A DNA stretch of 64,000 nucleotides. Origin: Caulobacter sp. 602-1 (GTDB taxonomy: Bacteria; Pseudomonadota; Alphaproteobacteria; Caulobacterales; Caulobacteraceae). The position numbers and the translations under genes were made by a program. This document shows, in pieces, positions 5,310 through 48,870 of the stretch. The notes under the pieces are model-generated. The model was not told where the DNA came from and searched no databases. It saw only the letters and a program-made list of their open reading frames with translations. Position 1 is the stretch's first letter; each line of letters opens with the position of its first letter. Where the stretch lies: assembly GCF_003931565.1 (NCBI RefSeq), contig NZ_RRYI01000012.1, forward strand, positions 1-64,000, given 5' to 3'.

Positions 5310-5717
5310 TCAGAACGCTCCGTTCGCGCCGGCGATGACCCAGGTGACGATCGTCGCCACCACCGCGAAGGCGATCGCCATGGCGCCCGTCATGTCGGCG
5401 ATACGCGGGGCGAACCCCTTGCCGGTGTCCCAGAAGGTCTGGCGGATCGTGTAGGCGATGTTGAAGAACACGGCGAAGGTTTCGCCCAGCAGCACCAGCT
5501 TGCCGATCGGCGAGCCCAGTACGCCGAGCAGGCCGGCATAAACGTCCGGGCCGGCGGCCAGGGCGGCGGCCCAGGCGGCCAGGATCACGGCGCCGACCCA
5601 CAGGCCGACGATACAGCCGCGGTGGAGGATCGAGCAGGCCATGGTGATATGCCAACGCCACACCTGCAGGTGTGGCGACATCGGGCGCTCAGGCAGCCCC
5701 CGGCTCGTGTCGGTCAT
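5310..5717 (-). CDS. sdhC: Succinate dehydrogenase cytochrome b556 subunit
   Basis: A 135-aa, three-helix subunit of complex II and the first gene of the sdhCDAB operon. The N-terminus carries the SdhC signature [12 protein letters not shown], and the first helix begins with SILHRG, the conserved segment at the quinone/heme site. The ATG at 5717 is the first codon after a sigma70-like promoter at 5758-5785. Confidence 0.95.
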
Positions 5718-5757
5718 GAGAGGTCCAACCCCAGTAGCCTTTGTGCGTTGCGGGATG

Positions 5758-5816
5758 CTTTTAAGCGTGAGGGCGGGGGTGTCAATTAAAGCGACGCCTG
5801 TTGAGAAACGTTCTCA
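5758..5816 (-). promoter_or_regulatory. sdhCDAB promoter with upstream palindrome
   Basis: On the minus strand, TTGACA (5780-5785) and TAAAAG (5758-5763) are separated by 16 bp, placing a transcript start about 35 bp before sdhC. A perfect 6-bp inverted repeat, TGAGAA-ACG-TTCTCA, occupies 5802-5816. Its centre lies near -58, a position more typical of an activator than a repressor. I cannot name the protein; iron- or respiration-responsive regulators are the obvious candidates for sdh. Confidence 0.55.
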
Positions 5817-5837
5817 GTACCGCTCCAGCTTGGTTAA

Positions 5838-5863
5838 GGAACTCCCAAGGCCAAGGTTGCGTT
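5838..5863 (+). promoter_or_regulatory. SigT-type (ECF15) promoter before the HWE kinase
   Basis: GGAAC at 5838-5842 and CGTT at 5860-5863 with a 17-bp spacer. This matches the known alphaproteobacterial general-stress sigma factor promoter (GGAAC-N16/17-CGTT). The predicted start site is about 20 bp before the GTG start of the kinase. It fits the nine-box pattern centred on 37.6-46.9 kb. Confidence 0.65.
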
Positions 5864-5890
5864 ACGGTCTGTCGCTTAGGGGAGCAAGGC

Positions 5891-7333
5891 GTGCGCATGA
5901 CGGGTCCGATCGATTTCGGCGCGATCTTTGATCGCATCCCTTCGCCCTACATGCTGCTCGACCGTGACTTTCGGTATGTGGCCGCCAACGCCGCCTATCT
6001 GCGCACCGTGCAACGCGGGTGGGGCGAACTGGAACATCGCAACATCTTCGACGCCTTTCCCTCGGAAGGCGAGACGCGAGCCCAGCTCGAAACCTCCCTG
6101 GCCCACGCCCGTGACCGGGGCGAGGTGACCGAACTGCCGCTGATCCATTACGCGATCGAAAGACCGGCCCACTTGGGCGGCGGCTTCGAGGATCGGATCT
6201 GGAGCGCCACCCATACGCCGATCCCCGATGAAGCCGGCGTTACCCGCTACATCCTGCAACACACCCAGGACGTCACCGCGATCCAGCGCCTCAAGGACGC
6301 GGCCTTTGGCTCGCGGTCGGCGACCATGCTGGGCGACGAAGTGCTCCGGCGGGCCCAGACCGTGCAGACCCAGAGCCGGCAACTTCGCAGCCTGTTCATG
6401 CAGGCCCCCAGCTTCATGGCCGTGCTTCGCGGTCCCGATCACGTCTTTGACCTCGCCAACAACGCGTACACCCAGCTGATCGGCCACCGCGAGGTTACCG
6501 GCCTGCCGGTGCGAACCGCTCTTCCGGAGATCGTAGACCAGGGCTTCATCAATCTTCTGGATCGGGTCTTGGCGACCCGCGAGGCGTTCGTGGGCCGGCG
6601 CGTGAAGATCGCCTTGCAGCGCAACGCCGGGGCGGCGCTGGAAGAGCGCTATCTCGACTTCGTCTATCAGCCGATCATCGAGGCGGACGGGACGGCCTCG
6701 GGCGTCTTCGTCGAAGGCGTGGACATGACGGATCAGGTCCAGGCGGACAACCGCCAGCGCCTGCTGCTCGACGAGCTGAACCATCGCGTAAAGAACACGC
6801 TGGCCACGGTCCAGGCCATCGCCCAGCAGACCCTGCGCGGCGCAACGACGCCCGAGACCTTCGCCGCCGCGTTCGAGGCTCGGCTGCTGGCCCTGTCCCA
6901 GACGCATAACGCCCTGACCGACAGCCAGTGGGCCGGAGCGGGTCTGCGCCAGATTCTGATCCAGGAGCTCGGACCCTATGGCTCGGAGCGCATTGTCATG
7001 GACGGCCCGGACGTTCACCTGCCGGCGCGCGTGGCCCTTTCGCTGGGCATGGTCTTCCACGAGCTGGCCACCAACGCCGCCAAGTACGGGGCTCTTTCGA
7101 TGGGAGGCCGGCTGCTGCTGGATTGGAACCTGACCGGCGGCGGCGAAGTGCTGAGCTTCGAATGGCGAGAGACCGGCGGCCCACCGGCCAAACACCCCGA
7201 GCGTCGGGGCTTCGGCTCCCGGCTGATCGAGCGCAGCATCACCGGCGAGCTTCAGGGTGAGATCGAGGCCGACTATGGCGAGACCGGACTGGTGACCCGA
7301 TTCAGCGTGCCGCTGGCCCGGGATTTCGGCTAG
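5891..7333 (+). CDS. PAS-domain HWE-family sensor histidine kinase
   Basis: A 480-aa soluble sensor kinase with no membrane segment. Two PAS-like domains occupy roughly residues 5-125 and 165-285. They are followed by an H-box [11 protein letters not shown] with phosphoacceptor His298 and a C-terminal ATPase domain containing a W-x-E motif (FEWRETGG), the hallmark of HWE kinases. The GTG at 5891 has AGGGGAG six bases upstream; the in-frame ATG at 5897 is the alternative. HWE and HisKA_2 kinases commonly feed the PhyR phosphorelay, and a SigT-type promoter lies just upstream, so an input role in the general stress response is a reasonable inference. The signal sensed is unknown. Confidence 0.88.
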
Positions 7334-7914
7334 GCGCGGAACACCGTCAGGGCCAGATGCTGCAGCAGCATGATGGTCTTGGCGTCGCGGATGCGGCCAT
7401 CGGCGATCATCGCCAGGGCCTCGTCTATGGTCGGCTCCAGCACCTCGATGTCCTCGCCCTCGTCCGGGTGCCCGCCGCCGTCGCCGATCCGCATGGCCGC
7501 ATCATACTCGGCGACGAAGAAGTGCAGGATCTCGGTCACCGAGCCCGGACTCATGAAGGCCTCGAACACCTTACGCACGTCGCCCAGGCGGTAACCCAGC
7601 TCCTCCTCGACCTCGGCGCGGATGCGAACCTCCGGCTCGGCGTTGTCCAGAAGACCAGCCGCCGCCTCGATCAGCAGGTCGTCATAGCCATTGACGAAGG
7701 CGGGCCATCGGAACTGCCGGACCAGCAGCACCGTCCGGCTTTCCAGATTGTAGGGCAACAACACCGCCCCATTGCCCCTGTCGTAGTGCTCGCGATGCTG
7801 GGTTTGCCAGGTCCCGTCCCGCCGCTTCCAGTCGAAGGTGGTCGTCTTCAGGACGTACCAATTGTCGGACAGCAGCTTGGTCTCGCGGACGCGGACACGA
7901 TCCTTGACGCTCAT
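7330..7914 (-). CDS. nudK: Nudix hydrolase, NudK-like
   Basis: A 194-aa Nudix hydrolase. The box starts [11 protein letters not shown] and ends AEVEEELGY; its spacing, one residue shorter than the classical Nudix box, matches what I recall of E. coli NudK (GDP-mannose pyrophosphatase), as does the N-terminal [14 protein letters not shown]. It probably cleaves a nucleotide-sugar pyrophosphate or ADP-ribose. The ATG at 7914 follows GGGAGAAGG and lies 10 bp after the zapE stop, so it is co-transcribed with zapE. The stop overlaps the end of the convergent kinase gene by a few bases. Substrate is inferred from similarity only. Confidence 0.8.
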
Positions 7915-37665: not shown

Positions 37666-39360
37666 CTAGGTTGGCGGAATCACGGCCTGCGGCGTCGGAA
37701 AGGTCAGGCGCACGGTCAGGCCGCGCGGCGCGTGGGTCTCGAACGTCACCTTGCCGCGCAGCTGTCGGGCGAAAGCGGTCATCAGCGTGCGGCCGACGCC
37801 GCCGCCGACGCTGTCGGGCGCGCCCGGACCATCGTCGCTGATGGAGAGCTCGGCCTCCTCGCCCCGCACGTGGAAGCCGACGCTGAGCATGCCGCCCGCC
37901 GGACCGAAGGCGTGCTTCTGGGCGTTGGTGATCGCCTCGACCGCGAACAGGGCGATCGGGGCCAGCCGGTCGGGATCAATGACCAGAGGATCGGCGTGGA
38001 CCTCGGTGCGCACCAGGGGCGAGGTGGACATGTCGTTGGCCAGGAGCTGAGCGGTCAGCTCCTCCAGGAACGGCCGCAGATCGACGCGCTTGAGATCCGG
38101 CCCCTGGTAGAGGGCCCGATAGATCTGGGCCAGGGCGGTGATCCGCTGGCGGGTGTCGTTCATCGCCGCCTTGGCCGCGGGATCGGCCAGGGCCCGCTGC
38201 TGCATGTTCAGCAGCGAGGTGATGATCTGCAGGTTGTTCTTCACCCGGTGATGGATCTCGCGCATCAGCGCGTCCTTCTCGGCCAGGCTGTCCAGCAGCG
38301 AGGCGTCGCGGGCGACGATGCCGCCCGCCATGGCGTCGAGGGTCGCCGCCAGCTCGCGGATCTCCGGCGGCGCCCGCTCGGCCTGCAGCGGCCGGACGGT
38401 GAAGCGTCCCCGCGCATAGATCGCCGCCACGCGCTGCAGGTAGACGATCCAGCGGATCACCTCCCGCTCGGAGACGATCAGCACCGCGCCCAAGGCCAGG
38501 AAGAAGGCCAGCAGCGGCAGCAGCAGGCGCGAGATCGGGTTGATCCAGGCCCAGGACACCAGGCCGGGCGCGGGCGCCGACAGCACCACGAAGACATCGT
38601 CGCTGACCAGCGGCGCGGCCGAATAGGTGCGCTCGTGATGGGCCGCGTCCTCGTGGCTCCAGATCGCCGCGCCGCTCTTGGCCGCGCGCTCGCGCCAACC
38701 GCGCGGCGGCGTCGAGAAGGCCGAAGGGTCGGTGGCGGCGAAGATCGCGCCGTTCGAATCGGCCAGCGCCACCTCGGCCCCATCGGGCATGAAGCGGTTG
38801 ACCGTGCCGACCTTGAGGTCGCGCAGGTTCAGGACAGCGGCCATCGCGCCTTCGAACTTGTCCGGCGGGCCGGCGCGAACGGCGGCCAGGACGGCAGGCT
38901 CGTTGGCGTAGACCGCGCCGGGAGCCGAGGCCACGACCATGCTCGCGCCGGCGCGCAGTTCCTGGAACCAGGGTCTCTGGCTCCGCTCGGCGTCAAACGG
39001 CGTCGTCGCCGCGGCGCAGACCACGCGGCCACGCGAGTCGAAGCGGATCAGATTGGCGTAGCCTGGCAGGCGGGCGCGTACGTCGGCCAGGCGCTGAGCG
39101 CATTCCAGCCCGACCGAGCCGGGGCCCAGGGTCTGGAGCAGCACCCCGGCCGCCTCGATACGGGCGCGGGCGTTGGCCGCGCTCTGTCCAGCCGCCAGCT
39201 CCAGGCTCTGGCGGCGCGAATCGGCCTCGGCCCGGAAGGCGAAGATCGACTGCGCGCCGCCGATGACCAGCACCGGAAGCAGAGCGACGCACAGCGCGAA
39301 GGCCAGGCGGACTCGGATGGATGTTACGGCCTGCTCGGCGCGGCCGGCAAAAGTCTTCAC
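37666..39360 (-). CDS. phyK: Sensor histidine kinase PhyK
   Basis: A 564-aa membrane sensor kinase that phosphorylates PhyR in the general stress response. TM1 is about residues 17-40, a periplasmic sensor domain spans about 41-275, and TM2 is about 277-297. A HAMP-like linker follows, then the HisKA_2 box REIHHRVKNNLQIITSLLN with phosphoacceptor His371, and an ATPase domain with NAQKHAF and SDDGPGAPD motifs. The GTG start at 39360 overlaps the sigT stop (GTGA). Position next to sigT-nepR and opposite phyR identifies it; this is the C. crescentus arrangement. Confidence 0.95.
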   Translation of the reverse strand: MKTFAGRAEQAVTSIRVRLAFALCVALLPVLVIGGAQSIFAFRAEADSRRQSLELAAGQSAANARARIEAAGVLLQTLGPGSVGLECAQRLADVRARLPGYANLIRFDSRGRVVCAAATTPFDAERSQRPWFQELRAGASMVVASAPGAVYANEPAVLAAVRAGPPDKFEGAMAAVLNLRDLKVGTVNRFMPDGAEVALADSNGAIFAATDPSAFSTPPRGWRERAAKSGAAIWSHEDAAHHERTYSAAPLVSDDVFVVLSAPAPGLVSWAWINPISRLLLPLLAFFLALGAVLIVSEREVIRWIVYLQRVAAIYARGRFTVRPLQAERAPPEIRELAATLDAMAGGIVARDASLLDSLAEKDALMREIHHRVKNNLQIITSLLNMQQRALADPAAKAAMNDTRQRITALAQIYRALYQGPDLKRVDLRPFLEELTAQLLANDMSTSPLVRTEVHADPLVIDPDRLAPIALFAVEAITNAQKHAFGPAGGMLSVGFHVRGEEAELSISDDGPGAPDSVGGGVGRTLMTAFARQLRGKVTFETHAPRGLTVRLTFPTPQAVIPPT

Positions 39361-39962
39361 CGCGGGGAGCTCAATCGCTCCGCGTCGGCGAGGATCGCAT
39401 GCATGGCGTCACCCGCCGATGCGCCGTCACGATCATAGGCCCCCGCCTCGAGAATGGCCTGCAACGCCCGGCGGGCGCGGCTGACACGGCTCTTCACGGT
39501 GCCCACGGCGCAGCCGCAGATCTCGGCGGCCTCTTCGTAGGCGAAGCCGCCGGCCCCGACCAGGATCAGGGCTTCGCGCTGCTCGGCGGGAAGCATGCCA
39601 AGGCCCAGGCGGAGTTCGTCAAGGGCGACGGGCGCCTCGGGATCGTCGACCGCCACCAGGGTCCGCTCGGCGGCTTCCTGGTCAAGCTGGCTCTGGCGCC
39701 AGCTGCGGCGCTTTTCCGAATAGAACTGGTTGCGCAGGATCATGAAGGTCCAGGCCTTCATGTTAGTGCCCAACTGGAAGCTGGCGCGCGCGTCCCAGGC
39801 CTTCATCATGGCGTCCTGCGCCAGATCGTCGGCCGCGGTGGGGTCGCCGGTCAGGGTGCGGGCGAAGGCGCGCAGATGCGGAATCAGGGTGACCAGTTCG
39901 CGCTTGAACTGGTTGTCACGGACGGGGTCGGGCGGCGAGCGGCCGACTTGCGGTTCGCTCAT
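39357..39962 (-). CDS. sigT: ECF15 general-stress sigma factor SigT
   Basis: A 201-aa sigma factor (EcfG type). Region 2 includes DLAQDAMMKAWDAR and MKAWTFMILRNQFYSEKRR; region 4 includes LPAEQREALILVGAGGFAYEEAAEICGCAVGTVKSRV in pieces typical of ECF15. It is held by NepR until phosphorylated PhyR removes the anti-sigma factor. It recognises GGAAC-N16/17-CGTT promoters, of which this window holds many, including its own. It sits two bases after nepR and overlaps phyK. Confidence 0.97.
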   Translation of the reverse strand: MSEPQVGRSPPDPVRDNQFKRELVTLIPHLRAFARTLTGDPTAADDLAQDAMMKAWDARASFQLGTNMKAWTFMILRNQFYSEKRRSWRQSQLDQEAAERTLVAVDDPEAPVALDELRLGLGMLPAEQREALILVGAGGFAYEEAAEICGCAVGTVKSRVSRARRALQAILEAGAYDRDGASAGDAMHAILADAERLSSPR

Positions 39963-39964
39963 GC

Positions 39965-40177
39965 TCAGCGCTCTCCCTTCGGGGGCTCGGCCTTGCGGAG
40001 AATTTCGAGGAATTCGTCGGGCACCGCCTCATTGACGACCTCGTCGAACATCTGACGCAGCTTCACGCCGATGGCCTGCTGGCGCAGACGCGCTTCATCC
40101 AGCGCCGCGGCGCTCTTGCGTTTGTCTTCCATGGGTACGTGTTCGATCATGTCCTCGACACCGAAGTGCATGTGCAT
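39965..40177 (-). CDS. nepR: Anti-sigma factor NepR
   Basis: A 70-aa anti-sigma factor that binds SigT, or the sigma-like domain of PhyR. The core LRQQAIGVKLRQMFDEVVNE followed by AVPDEFLEILRKAE is the NepR signature. I choose the ATG at 40177 (MHMHFGVED): a purine-rich AAAGGGGGCGG lies upstream and the SigT promoter is about 45 bp away. An internal ATG at 40132 would give a 55-aa protein that keeps the whole core. It is followed directly by sigT, so both are made together. Confidence 0.93.
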   Translation of the reverse strand: MHMHFGVEDMIEHVPMEDKRKSAAALDEARLRQQAIGVKLRQMFDEVVNEAVPDEFLEILRKAEPPKGER

Positions 40178-40220
40178 CGGCGTCCGCCCCCTTTGGCCGA
40201 ATGTCTTTCCGCCAGACGAC

Positions 40221-40245
40221 AACGTGGTTTTCCGTGCCCGGTTCC
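40221..40245 (-). promoter_or_regulatory. SigT promoter of nepR-sigT-phyK
   Basis: Minus strand GGAAC (40245-40241), CGTT (40224-40221), 16-bp spacer. It gives positive autoregulation of the sigma factor operon, as known in C. crescentus. Confidence 0.88.
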
Positions 40246-40284
40246 CTAAGCTTGGGCTTAAGATGTCAAAAATTCGCAACGGAC

Positions 40285-40309
40285 GGAACCGCTCAGTTGA
40301 GGCGGCGTT
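40285..40309 (+). promoter_or_regulatory. SigT promoter of phyR
   Basis: Plus strand GGAAC (40285-40289), CGTT (40306-40309), 16-bp spacer. It is divergent from the nepR promoter, 40 bp away, so both arms of the switch are under SigT. Confidence 0.88.
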
Positions 40310-40383
40310 ATCGACCATCGACGGAACGGCATAGCTTTGCCGTTCGTTAGTTAGTTTCCGAAGACACCGCATCGGGAGGGGTC

Positions 40384-41184
40384 ATGAGTCTTCTTGCTCG
40401 GCTGGCGCCGCATCTGCCTTACATCCGCCGCTACGCCCGCGCCCTCACCGGCGATCAGTCGACGGGCGATCATTATGTCCGCGTAGCCCTCGAGGCCCTG
40501 GCGGCCGGAGAGCGTTCGCTGGACGACGATCTGTCGCCGCGCGTGGCGCTCTATCGCGTCTTCCACGCCATCTGGCTCAGTTCCGGCGCCCAACTCGAGG
40601 CCCGTCGCGACGAAGGCCTGACGGCCGGCGACGACGCCGCCCAGCGCCTGATGCGAATCGCTCCGCGTTCGCGGCAGGCCTTCCTGCTCACCGCGCTCGA
40701 GGGCTTCACGCCGACCGAAGCCGCCCAGATCCTCGACTGTGACTTCGGCGAGGTCGAACGCCTGATCTCCGACGCCCAGGCCGAGATCGACGCCGAGCTG
40801 GCCACCGAAGTTCTGATCATCGAGGACGAGCCGGTCATCGCCGCCGACATCGAGGCCCTGGTCAAGGAACTGGGCCACCAGGTCACCGACATCGCCGCCA
40901 CCCGCGGCGAGGCGGTCGAGGCCGTGGCCCGTCGCAAGCCCGGCTTGGTGCTGGCCGACATCCAGCTGGCCGATGGCTCGTCCGGCATCGACGCGGTCAA
41001 GGACATCCTGGGCCGGATGGACGTGCCGGTGATTTTCATCACCGCCTTCCCCGAGCGCCTGCTGACCGGCGAGCGCCCGGAGCCGACCTTCCTGATCACC
41101 AAGCCCTTCCAGCCGGAAACGGTGAAGGCGGCGATCGGCCAGGCGCTGTTCTTCCACCCGCGCCGGGCCGCCAAGGCGGCCTGA
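40384..41184 (+). CDS. phyR: Anti-anti-sigma response regulator PhyR
   Basis: A 266-aa protein with an ECF-sigma-like N-terminal domain (about residues 1-130) and a C-terminal receiver (about 140-266). The phosphoacceptor is Asp192 in VLADIQLADGSSG. The receiver also has the acidic IIEDEP motif, TAFPERLL after the switch residue, and conserved Lys in ITKPFQP. Phosphorylation frees the sigma-like domain to capture NepR and release SigT. GGGAGGGG lies just before the ATG. It is transcribed alone from a SigT promoter and ends at a hairpin. Confidence 0.98.
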   Translation: MSLLARLAPHLPYIRRYARALTGDQSTGDHYVRVALEALAAGERSLDDDLSPRVALYRVFHAIWLSSGAQLEARRDEGLTAGDDAAQRLMRIAPRSRQAFLLTALEGFTPTEAAQILDCDFGEVERLISDAQAEIDAELATEVLIIEDEPVIAADIEALVKELGHQVTDIAATRGEAVEAVARRKPGLVLADIQLADGSSGIDAVKDILGRMDVPVIFITAFPERLLTGERPEPTFLITKPFQPETVKAAIGQALFFHPRRAAKAA

Positions 41185-47031: not shown

Positions 47032-48870
47032 ATGGAGGACGCCCCCATCGTCAGCGACGAGCGCCAGGAAGCCGCCCGGCTCAACGCCTTGAAGGCCTTG
47101 AACATCCTGGACGGCGCGGTCAACGAGCCTCGCTTCCTGCGCCTCGCGCGTCTGGCCGCCCGCCTGTTCGACGCGCCCAAGGCCGCCGTCGTCCTGGTCG
47201 ACGAGGACAGGGTCTGGCGCAAGGCCTTTGTCGGTTATCCCGGTCCCGAAGGCCCCCGCGCCGGCGATCTGGCCGACCAGATCGTGACCGCCAACGGCCC
47301 CGTCGCCCTCGGCGCGCCGATCCGCGACAAGCAGGGTCATGTGCTGGGCGCCCTGGTGGTGGAAGGCCCGGGCGCGAGCGGCCCCGCCTCCGACGAGGAT
47401 CTGCGGGCGCTGGAAGACCTGGCCGACCTGGCCGCGGAAGGCCTGGCCGACCAGCCATGCCTGGCCCGCAGCCTCGAAAGCGAACGCCTGGACCTGGCCA
47501 TCTCGGCCGCCAGCCTCGGCGAGTTCGAATGGGACATCAAACGCGACGTCTTCAAGATCAGCCCCCGCCTGGCCAAGATCTCGGACATCGAGCCCGGCGA
47601 GATTCCGGCCGAGGACGGCGAGGCCCTCTATCGATACCTGCATCCCGACGATCGGGACTGGCTGAGGGAATCGATCAACGAGCAGCTGGCGGAAAGCGAT
47701 CGCTACGAGGCCGAATACCGCCGGCCCAACGGCCCCGACGGCCGCGAAATCTGGAACCACGGCTCGGGCGTCATCGTGCGCGACGCCCATGGCGAGCCGG
47801 CCTATCTGATCGGCGTCGTCCAGGACATCACCGAGCGCAGGGCCGAAGAGGACCAGCGCGAGAACCTCGTCGCCGAACTGGACCACCGCATCAAGAACCT
47901 GCTGGCCGTCGTCCAGTCGGTGGCGGCCCAGTCGGCGCGCAAGTCGGCCTCGCTGGACGTGTTCCTCAAGACCTTCGCCGCGCGGCTGAAGTCGATGAGC
48001 TCGGCCCACGACCTCCTGACCGCCGCTCGCTGGCGCGGGGCGACCCTGGCGCGGATCGCCGCCGCCGAACTTGGCGGCCTGGCGCCCACCCAGACCCGTT
48101 GGGACGGGCCGGAACTGTTCCTCACGCCGCGCGCGGCCTCGGCGCTGTCGCTGGCGTTGCACGAACTGGCGGTCAATGCGATGCGCTACGGCTCGCTATC
48201 GACCGAGAACGGCAAGGTCGAGGTCGTCTGGCGGCGCACGCCGGAGGGCGGCTTCGCCCTCGAATGGCTGGAGACCGGCGGCCCGCCAGCCACCGCGCCG
48301 GTCGCCAAGGGCTTCGGCGCCACCCTGATCGAGGACGTCGCCGGCCGCGAACTGGGCGGTTCGGCCAAGATCAACTACCGCTCCAGCGGCGTCACCGCCA
48401 TGATCCAGGGCGCGGCCGAGGCCCTGGCCGACGCGCCGCCGATCGAGCCGGCCGAAGTCGCTCCCGAGCGTATCGTCGAGACCGTGGTCGCCGCCGACGA
48501 GACCGTCCGCCCGGGCGCCATCGCCGGCCTCAAGGTGCTGATCGTCGAGGACTCGCTGCTGCTGGCCCTGGAGCTGGAAGCGGGCCTGGAGGACGCCGGC
48601 GTCGTGGTGGTCGGTTGCGCGGCCGAGCTCAGCGAAGCGCTGTCGATGGTCGAGATGGACTTCGACGTCGCGGTGCTGGACGCCGACCTCAACGGCCAGT
48701 CGGTGGCGCCGGTGGCCGAGATCCTGCGCACCATGGGCCGACCGTTCGTCTTCGCCACGGGCTATGCCGACAAGGCCGCGCCCATGGGGTTCGACGCCCC
48801 GATCGTGCGCAAGCCCTACAACGTGCACCAGATCGCGCGGGCCGTGGCGGGGGTCACGGGGCGGGCTTAG
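47032..48870 (+). CDS. GAF-PAS-HWE hybrid histidine kinase with FATGUY-type receiver
   Basis: A 612-aa soluble hybrid kinase. A GAF-like domain spans about residues 15-145 and a PAS domain about 158-275 (GEFEWDIKRDVF to VVQDITERR). The HWE H-box ELDHRIKNLLAVVQ holds His285, and the ATPase domain has LHELAVNAMRYG and the W-x-E motif (LEWLETGG). A C-terminal receiver spans about 500-612 with phosphoacceptor Asp550 and the sequence PFVFATGYAD. That motif marks the FATGUY receivers linked to GSR signalling in sphingomonads. No good ribosome site or SigT box is seen upstream. Domain type and location suggest it tunes PhyR, but this is inference. Confidence 0.87.
   Translation: MEDAPIVSDERQEAARLNALKALNILDGAVNEPRFLRLARLAARLFDAPKAAVVLVDEDRVWRKAFVGYPGPEGPRAGDLADQIVTANGPVALGAPIRDKQGHVLGALVVEGPGASGPASDEDLRALEDLADLAAEGLADQPCLARSLESERLDLAISAASLGEFEWDIKRDVFKISPRLAKISDIEPGEIPAEDGEALYRYLHPDDRDWLRESINEQLAESDRYEAEYRRPNGPDGREIWNHGSGVIVRDAHGEPAYLIGVVQDITERRAEEDQRENLVAELDHRIKNLLAVVQSVAAQSARKSASLDVFLKTFAARLKSMSSAHDLLTAARWRGATLARIAAAELGGLAPTQTRWDGPELFLTPRAASALSLALHELAVNAMRYGSLSTENGKVEVVWRRTPEGGFALEWLETGGPPATAPVAKGFGATLIEDVAGRELGGSAKINYRSSGVTAMIQGAAEALADAPPIEPAEVAPERIVETVVAADETVRPGAIAGLKVLIVEDSLLLALELEAGLEDAGVVVVGCAAELSEALSMVEMDFDVAVLDADLNGQSVAPVAEILRTMGRPFVFATGYADKAAPMGFDAPIVRKPYNVHQIARAVAGVTGRA

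Follow-up and report, generated by a model that had tools for sequence, protein, structure and literature searches.

A conserved SigT-type promoter box precedes an sdhC-linked PAS-PAS-HWE histidine kinase gene in Caulobacter and may bring a sensor kinase under the general stress response

Control of general stress response (GSR) kinases by SigT is already known from Caulobacter crescentus, where lovK, lovR and phyR are reported to be SigT-dependent (PMC3073932), phyK is also placed under SigT in a figure legend (PMC5964349), and the SigT motif is given as GGAAC-N16-CGTT (PMC4287350). One study examined purified LovK and PhyK together with nine more HWE/HisKA2 kinases: autophosphorylation was seen for five, four of which transferred phosphate to MrrA, as CC2554 also does; MrrA was in turn reported to pass phosphate to LovK and PhyK, PhyK~P was proposed to be the main phosphate donor of PhyR, and lovKR, which SigT drives, was proposed to damp the response (PMC5964349). 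Elsewhere, the HWE/HisKA2 Pak kinases of S. melonis act on a FATGUY receiver in the SdrG-PhyT-PhyR relay (PMC6599016), and Brucella LOV-HK transfers phosphate to PhyR and LovR (PMC4438053). The kinase described here would add one to the GSR kinases under SigT, resembling C. crescentus lovK-lovR and phyK in its predicted control; LovK and PhyK are HisKA2-type, whereas this kinase is HWE proper and is encoded beside sdh. It is also like the Pak kinases by family, with SigT-type control as the new element. The nearest solved structure by both sequence and fold is Brucella LOV-HK (PDB 6ph4, 5epv), which is 38% identical to it over the kinase core (5epv), but the LOV cysteine motif is absent from the kinase sequence. 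We found no description of the gene in the literature searched, a scope outside which most subscription papers fall.

The window, a 64,000-nucleotide stretch of Caulobacter sp. 602-1, carries the kinase gene between sdhC, from which it diverges and beyond which lie the SdhA and SdhB genes, and a NUDIX gene that converges on it; no receiver gene adjoins the kinase gene (Table 1). The reading frame is intact from either GTG 5891 or ATG 5897. We favour the GTG because the closest relative (L035, 87% identity) keeps it and has ACG at the ATG position, and counted from there the phosphoacceptor is indeed His298, as the sequence-only reading had it (His296 from the ATG). HWE kinases are marked by a phosphoacceptor His, an N-box His and a WxE motif. 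Numbered from the ATG, the protein has HRVKN at 296, HELATN at 388 and WRE at 423, and H296, H388, W423 and E425 are invariant across 19 aligned rows. Pfam HWE_HK (PF07536) scores 102.4 bits against a cut-off of 22.8, compared with 28 bits for HisKA_2. Pfam PAS_4 matches in two stretches, and a structure model shows two PAS-like regions ahead of the kinase core (mean pLDDT 77; pTM 0.35, so that the domain arrangement is unreliable). The second of these is 32–33% identical to the PAS domain of Rv1364c (PDB 3k3c), a protein that differs in the rest of its length, and the likeness gives no ligand for the kinase.

Table 1. Features of the kinase locus and of the core stress locus in the window, and receivers elsewhere in the genome (contig:position).
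Feature	Position	Strand	Basis or remark
sdhC, divergent neighbour	5310..5717	-	Pfam Sdh_cyt
Probable sdhC -35 element, TTGACA on minus	5780..5785	-	Conserved TGTCAA; putative role
Fur-like palindrome, between sdhC and kinase	5802..5816		Conserved in orthologs
SigT (EcfG)-type promoter box, GGAAC-N17-CGTT	5838..5863	+	Motif; kept in 30/30 sdhC-adjacent orthologs
PAS-PAS-HWE histidine kinase gene	5891..7333	+	Pfam HWE_HK, PAS_4; GTG start favoured, ATG possible
PhyK-like HisKA_2 kinase	37666..39360	-	Named from family and place
SigT-like ECF sigma factor	39357..39962	-	
Open frame holding NepR	39965..40372	-	Pfam NepR; start approximate
PhyR	40384..41184	+	Pfam PhyR_sigma2 and receiver; two boxes upstream
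MrrA/SdrG-like receiver	C175:247120		PFVFATG
MrrA/SdrG-like receiver	C109:737644		PFAFASG
MrrA/SdrG-like receiver	C164:192956		PFAFVTG

The kinase had been called unlinked, which holds in the sense that it shares no operon with the phyK-sigT-nepR and phyR genes, which lie about 30–33 kb away in the same window. The box proposed upstream of it is also present as claimed: GGAACTCCCAAGGCCAAGGTTGCGTT consists of GGAAC, 17 bp and CGTT, so that both halves match the published SigT motif exactly and the spacer is 17 instead of 16, a length shared with one of the pair of boxes upstream of phyR (40323-40348). It ends 27 bp before the GTG and 33 bp before the ATG, and would place the transcription start near 5870; no sigma-70-type promoters were found in 5700-7500. 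When spacers of 15-18 are allowed, the window has 11 matches to the motif against 1.6 expected from shuffles, ten of which fall within 37.6-46.9 kb, at or near the sigT-phyR locus. Genome-wide, the exact motif (N16-17, both strands) has 60 matches in 5.44 Mb, or by our arithmetic about 0.0005 per 100 bp of one strand, and its reversed control has 79. The motif is thus rarer than its control and on its own is no evidence; our reading of the box as a SigT promoter is based on its conservation and not on the bare match.

That conservation, which the sequence-only reading had named as a check, extends across the sdhC-linked family. A search of 75 Caulobacter-genus genomes (E 1e-100) gave 36 matches, comprising the window itself, 28 loci at 66-87% identity, one locus truncated at the end of its contig (G024) and six loci with 50-52%; sdhC adjoins the first 30 and, within stretches of limited length, none of the six. 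The box is kept in all 30 sdhC-adjacent orthologs, which are relatives and not 30 independent cases, as an exact GGAAC-N16/17-CGTT in 26 and as GGAAC-N17-CATT in four, and no box precedes the gene in the six distant relatives. Among the exact boxes the spacer is 17 in 22 and 16 in four, with no other length. Within the 130 bp before the gene, 26 of 29 family members have the motif, compared with an average of 0.16 for 359 letter-permuted control motifs, of which two outliers (18 and 13) are in our reading overlaps with the conserved palindrome. In 29 rows anchored on the box, which was found in all 29, the 25 columns before GGAAC drift (top-base frequency 0.31-0.66), and the spacer columns are partly conserved (0.38-0.90 by anchor), more so near the -10. 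Named-record loci, largely the same genomes as the 75 and not counted again, have the exact box in 13 of 14 Caulobacter-like cases and CATT in the other, and no box in four distant loci. The four orthologs with CATT in place of CGTT (L044, L050, L054 and L237) may form one group whose -10 is weaker or shifted.

Genomes without the kinase provide the complementary comparison. Thirty-nine had no match; six of these with 70–83% completeness (G021, G060, G062, G065, G066 and G067) were left out, and the remaining 33 were searched for sdhC, which all of them have. Upstream of sdhC, over up to 600 bp (about 216 bp in L106), the box was found in none of the 33, the CATT form included, and the Fur-like palindrome was found in 20, on which grounds we reject the idea that the box belongs to sdhC or travels with the palindrome. 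In two of these loci (L094 and L098) homology extends from upstream across the box region, after which the kinase is missing, with deletion ends visible in the DNA comparison; the box has decayed in both, with both halves changed in L098 and a -10 of CGTC in L094, and we read them as losses of the kinase rather than as genes never gained. A protein search at E 0.01 found no kinase remnants in 30 sdhC loci. The model strain C. crescentus also appears to be without the gene, because its sdh genes form the operon CC3529-25 (PMC3751524) and CC3530 is missing from a published list of its HWE/HisKA2 kinases, although that list is incomplete and omits CC_3560 (SkaH) (PMC5964349, PMC6530869). The earlier claim that the kinase gene is a SigT target thus gains strong support from comparison, with the box in 30 of 30 sdhC-adjacent orthologs and in 0 of 33 genomes without one. 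We consider a SigT (EcfG) promoter before the kinase very likely, in which case this sensor kinase probably becomes more abundant under stress.

HWE kinases in general do not carry the box, an idea that we rejected after a survey of 16 kinase matches in this genome (a further family match, C164:1396, lies outside the survey). Exact boxes are upstream of three only, namely this kinase (L001), L003 and L006; a fourth box, near L014, sits inside the L014 open frame. L003 is a GAF-PAS-HWE kinase (C109:737989-739590, minus; also L124) that adjoins an SdrG-like receiver (C109:737644-737961), and GGAAC-N16-CGTT is upstream of it in 29 of 30 relatives examined out of 39 matched, the single miss (L147) being a shorter locus. 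The L006 box (C22:74490-74515, L066) is exact, lies 167 bp before the first start and is kept in one of 30 relatives examined out of 38 matched; it is probably due to chance or species-specific. Control by SigT of selected, but not all, HWE kinases appears from these comparisons to be a lasting trait of the genus. Three MrrA/SdrG-like receivers outside hybrid kinases each adjoin an HWE kinase gene (Table 1), and searches with a motif pattern, a FATGUY receiver from this genome and SdrG did not settle which of them, if any, is the MrrA ortholog. Within the window, 47032-48870 encodes a hybrid kinase of the HWE type that combines GAF and PAS with a receiver in which PFVFATG occurs. Neither the 16 kinase matches nor a DNA pattern search that tolerated at most one mismatch revealed a LOV motif, and LovK may be absent from this genome.

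The comparison shows that the box is maintained together with the gene; SigT use, the start site, the phosphate partner and the choice between boost and damping are inferred in the scheme that follows. The kinase gene would belong directly to the SigT (EcfG) regulon. Under stress, NepR would release SigT, SigT-RNA polymerase would initiate at the predicted start, and a soluble PAS-PAS-HWE kinase would accumulate and autophosphorylate on His298. Its phosphate would then enter the general-stress phosphorelay, most likely from an MrrA/SdrG-type receiver to PhyK and on to PhyR, so that the active response would retune its own sensory input. The kinase as an input to PhyR, and the feedback that follows, are plausible, the relay to PhyR having about even odds in our view; the scheme as a whole is our best explanation, and we would give it an even chance. 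The sequence-only reading had envisaged a loop separate from PhyK, a wiring that we regard as less likely than a route via such a receiver and PhyK, since in C. crescentus HWE kinases phosphorylate MrrA and PhyK~P is the proposed donor to PhyR. Feedback by the kinase could be a boost or a damping, since damping is what has been proposed for lovKR, which SigT drives.

Other explanations would accept the promoter and change what the kinase does. It could lie on an output branch of SigT, steering attachment or motility via another receiver with no loop to PhyR. Work on S. melonis reports EcfG-independent regulation of motility and biofilm genes by SdrG and the GSR kinases, along with an orphan hybrid kinase that is EcfG-dependent (PMC6599016); in C. 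crescentus, hfiA and attachment are under the influence of LovK and SkaH (PMC6530869). However, the FATGUY-type hub MrrA joins most of the kinases of this kind that were tested to the stress response (PMC5964349), and we view the output branch as a possibility on the unlikely side. A SigT-made kinase might instead serve as a phosphatase or phosphate drain and damp the response. The precedent is lovKR, SigT-controlled and a proposed dampener (PMC5964349), and another kinase might fill the place of lovK in a genome where no LOV motif was found; but the catalytic residues of this kinase are intact and no partner receiver gene adjoins it, and we are doubtful of such a role.

Still others would change the reading of the box itself. 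SigU or another ECF factor might recognize it, as its spacer is 17 rather than the published 16 and AAC is often common to ECF -35 elements (PMC8103513), but GGAAC and CGTT together make up the SigT motif (PMC4287350), and a spacer of 17 also occurs at phyR here while four of the 26 exact orthologs have 16, which leaves another sigma factor very unlikely. Finally, a chance match without function is hardly credible and was rejected on conservation, despite a pattern no commoner genome-wide than its reversed control and an L006 box that is probably of that kind, because the kinase box is kept in every sdhC-adjacent ortholog and is absent or decayed where the gene is missing.

A SigT promoter would share its intergenic region with the Fur-like palindrome. 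The palindrome, TGAGAAACGTTCTCA or a close form, is present in all 29 orthologs tested and degenerate in the 30th, and its centre is about 24 bp from the sdhC -35 element and 29 bp from GGAAC. From palindrome to TGTCAA the distance is 21-22 bp start to start in 29 of 29; from palindrome to GGAAC it is 36 or 37 bp in 25 of 29, 35-39 in 28 and once 50, with bases between that vary, and the distance from box to ATG is looser (26-50). The constancy between palindrome and box is only suggestive, because indels may simply be rare. Fur is reported to bind and activate sdh in C. crescentus, where sigT rises on iron limitation (PMC6120978), and because of that activation we take the palindrome to be a putative Fur site. 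The 173-bp region 5718-5890 might then be a two-way iron/stress switch, in which Fur would activate sdh under plentiful iron and would also gate the kinase's SigT promoter, with iron status setting the strength of GSR self-feedback; together with the GAF-PAS-HWE kinase and receiver pair, which has the stricter SigT box, SigT would rebuild part of the stress-sensor set. We offer this extension as speculation and think it improbable.

A sensor kinase controlled by SigT means that the general stress response, once on, can change what is sensed. Should the kinase act as we propose, it would be a further kinase made under SigT, alongside lovK and phyK, and encoded by a gene that C. crescentus appears to be without. 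The gene is distributed patchily across the genus, which allows a natural comparison, and promoter fusions could be aimed precisely at the conserved boxes.
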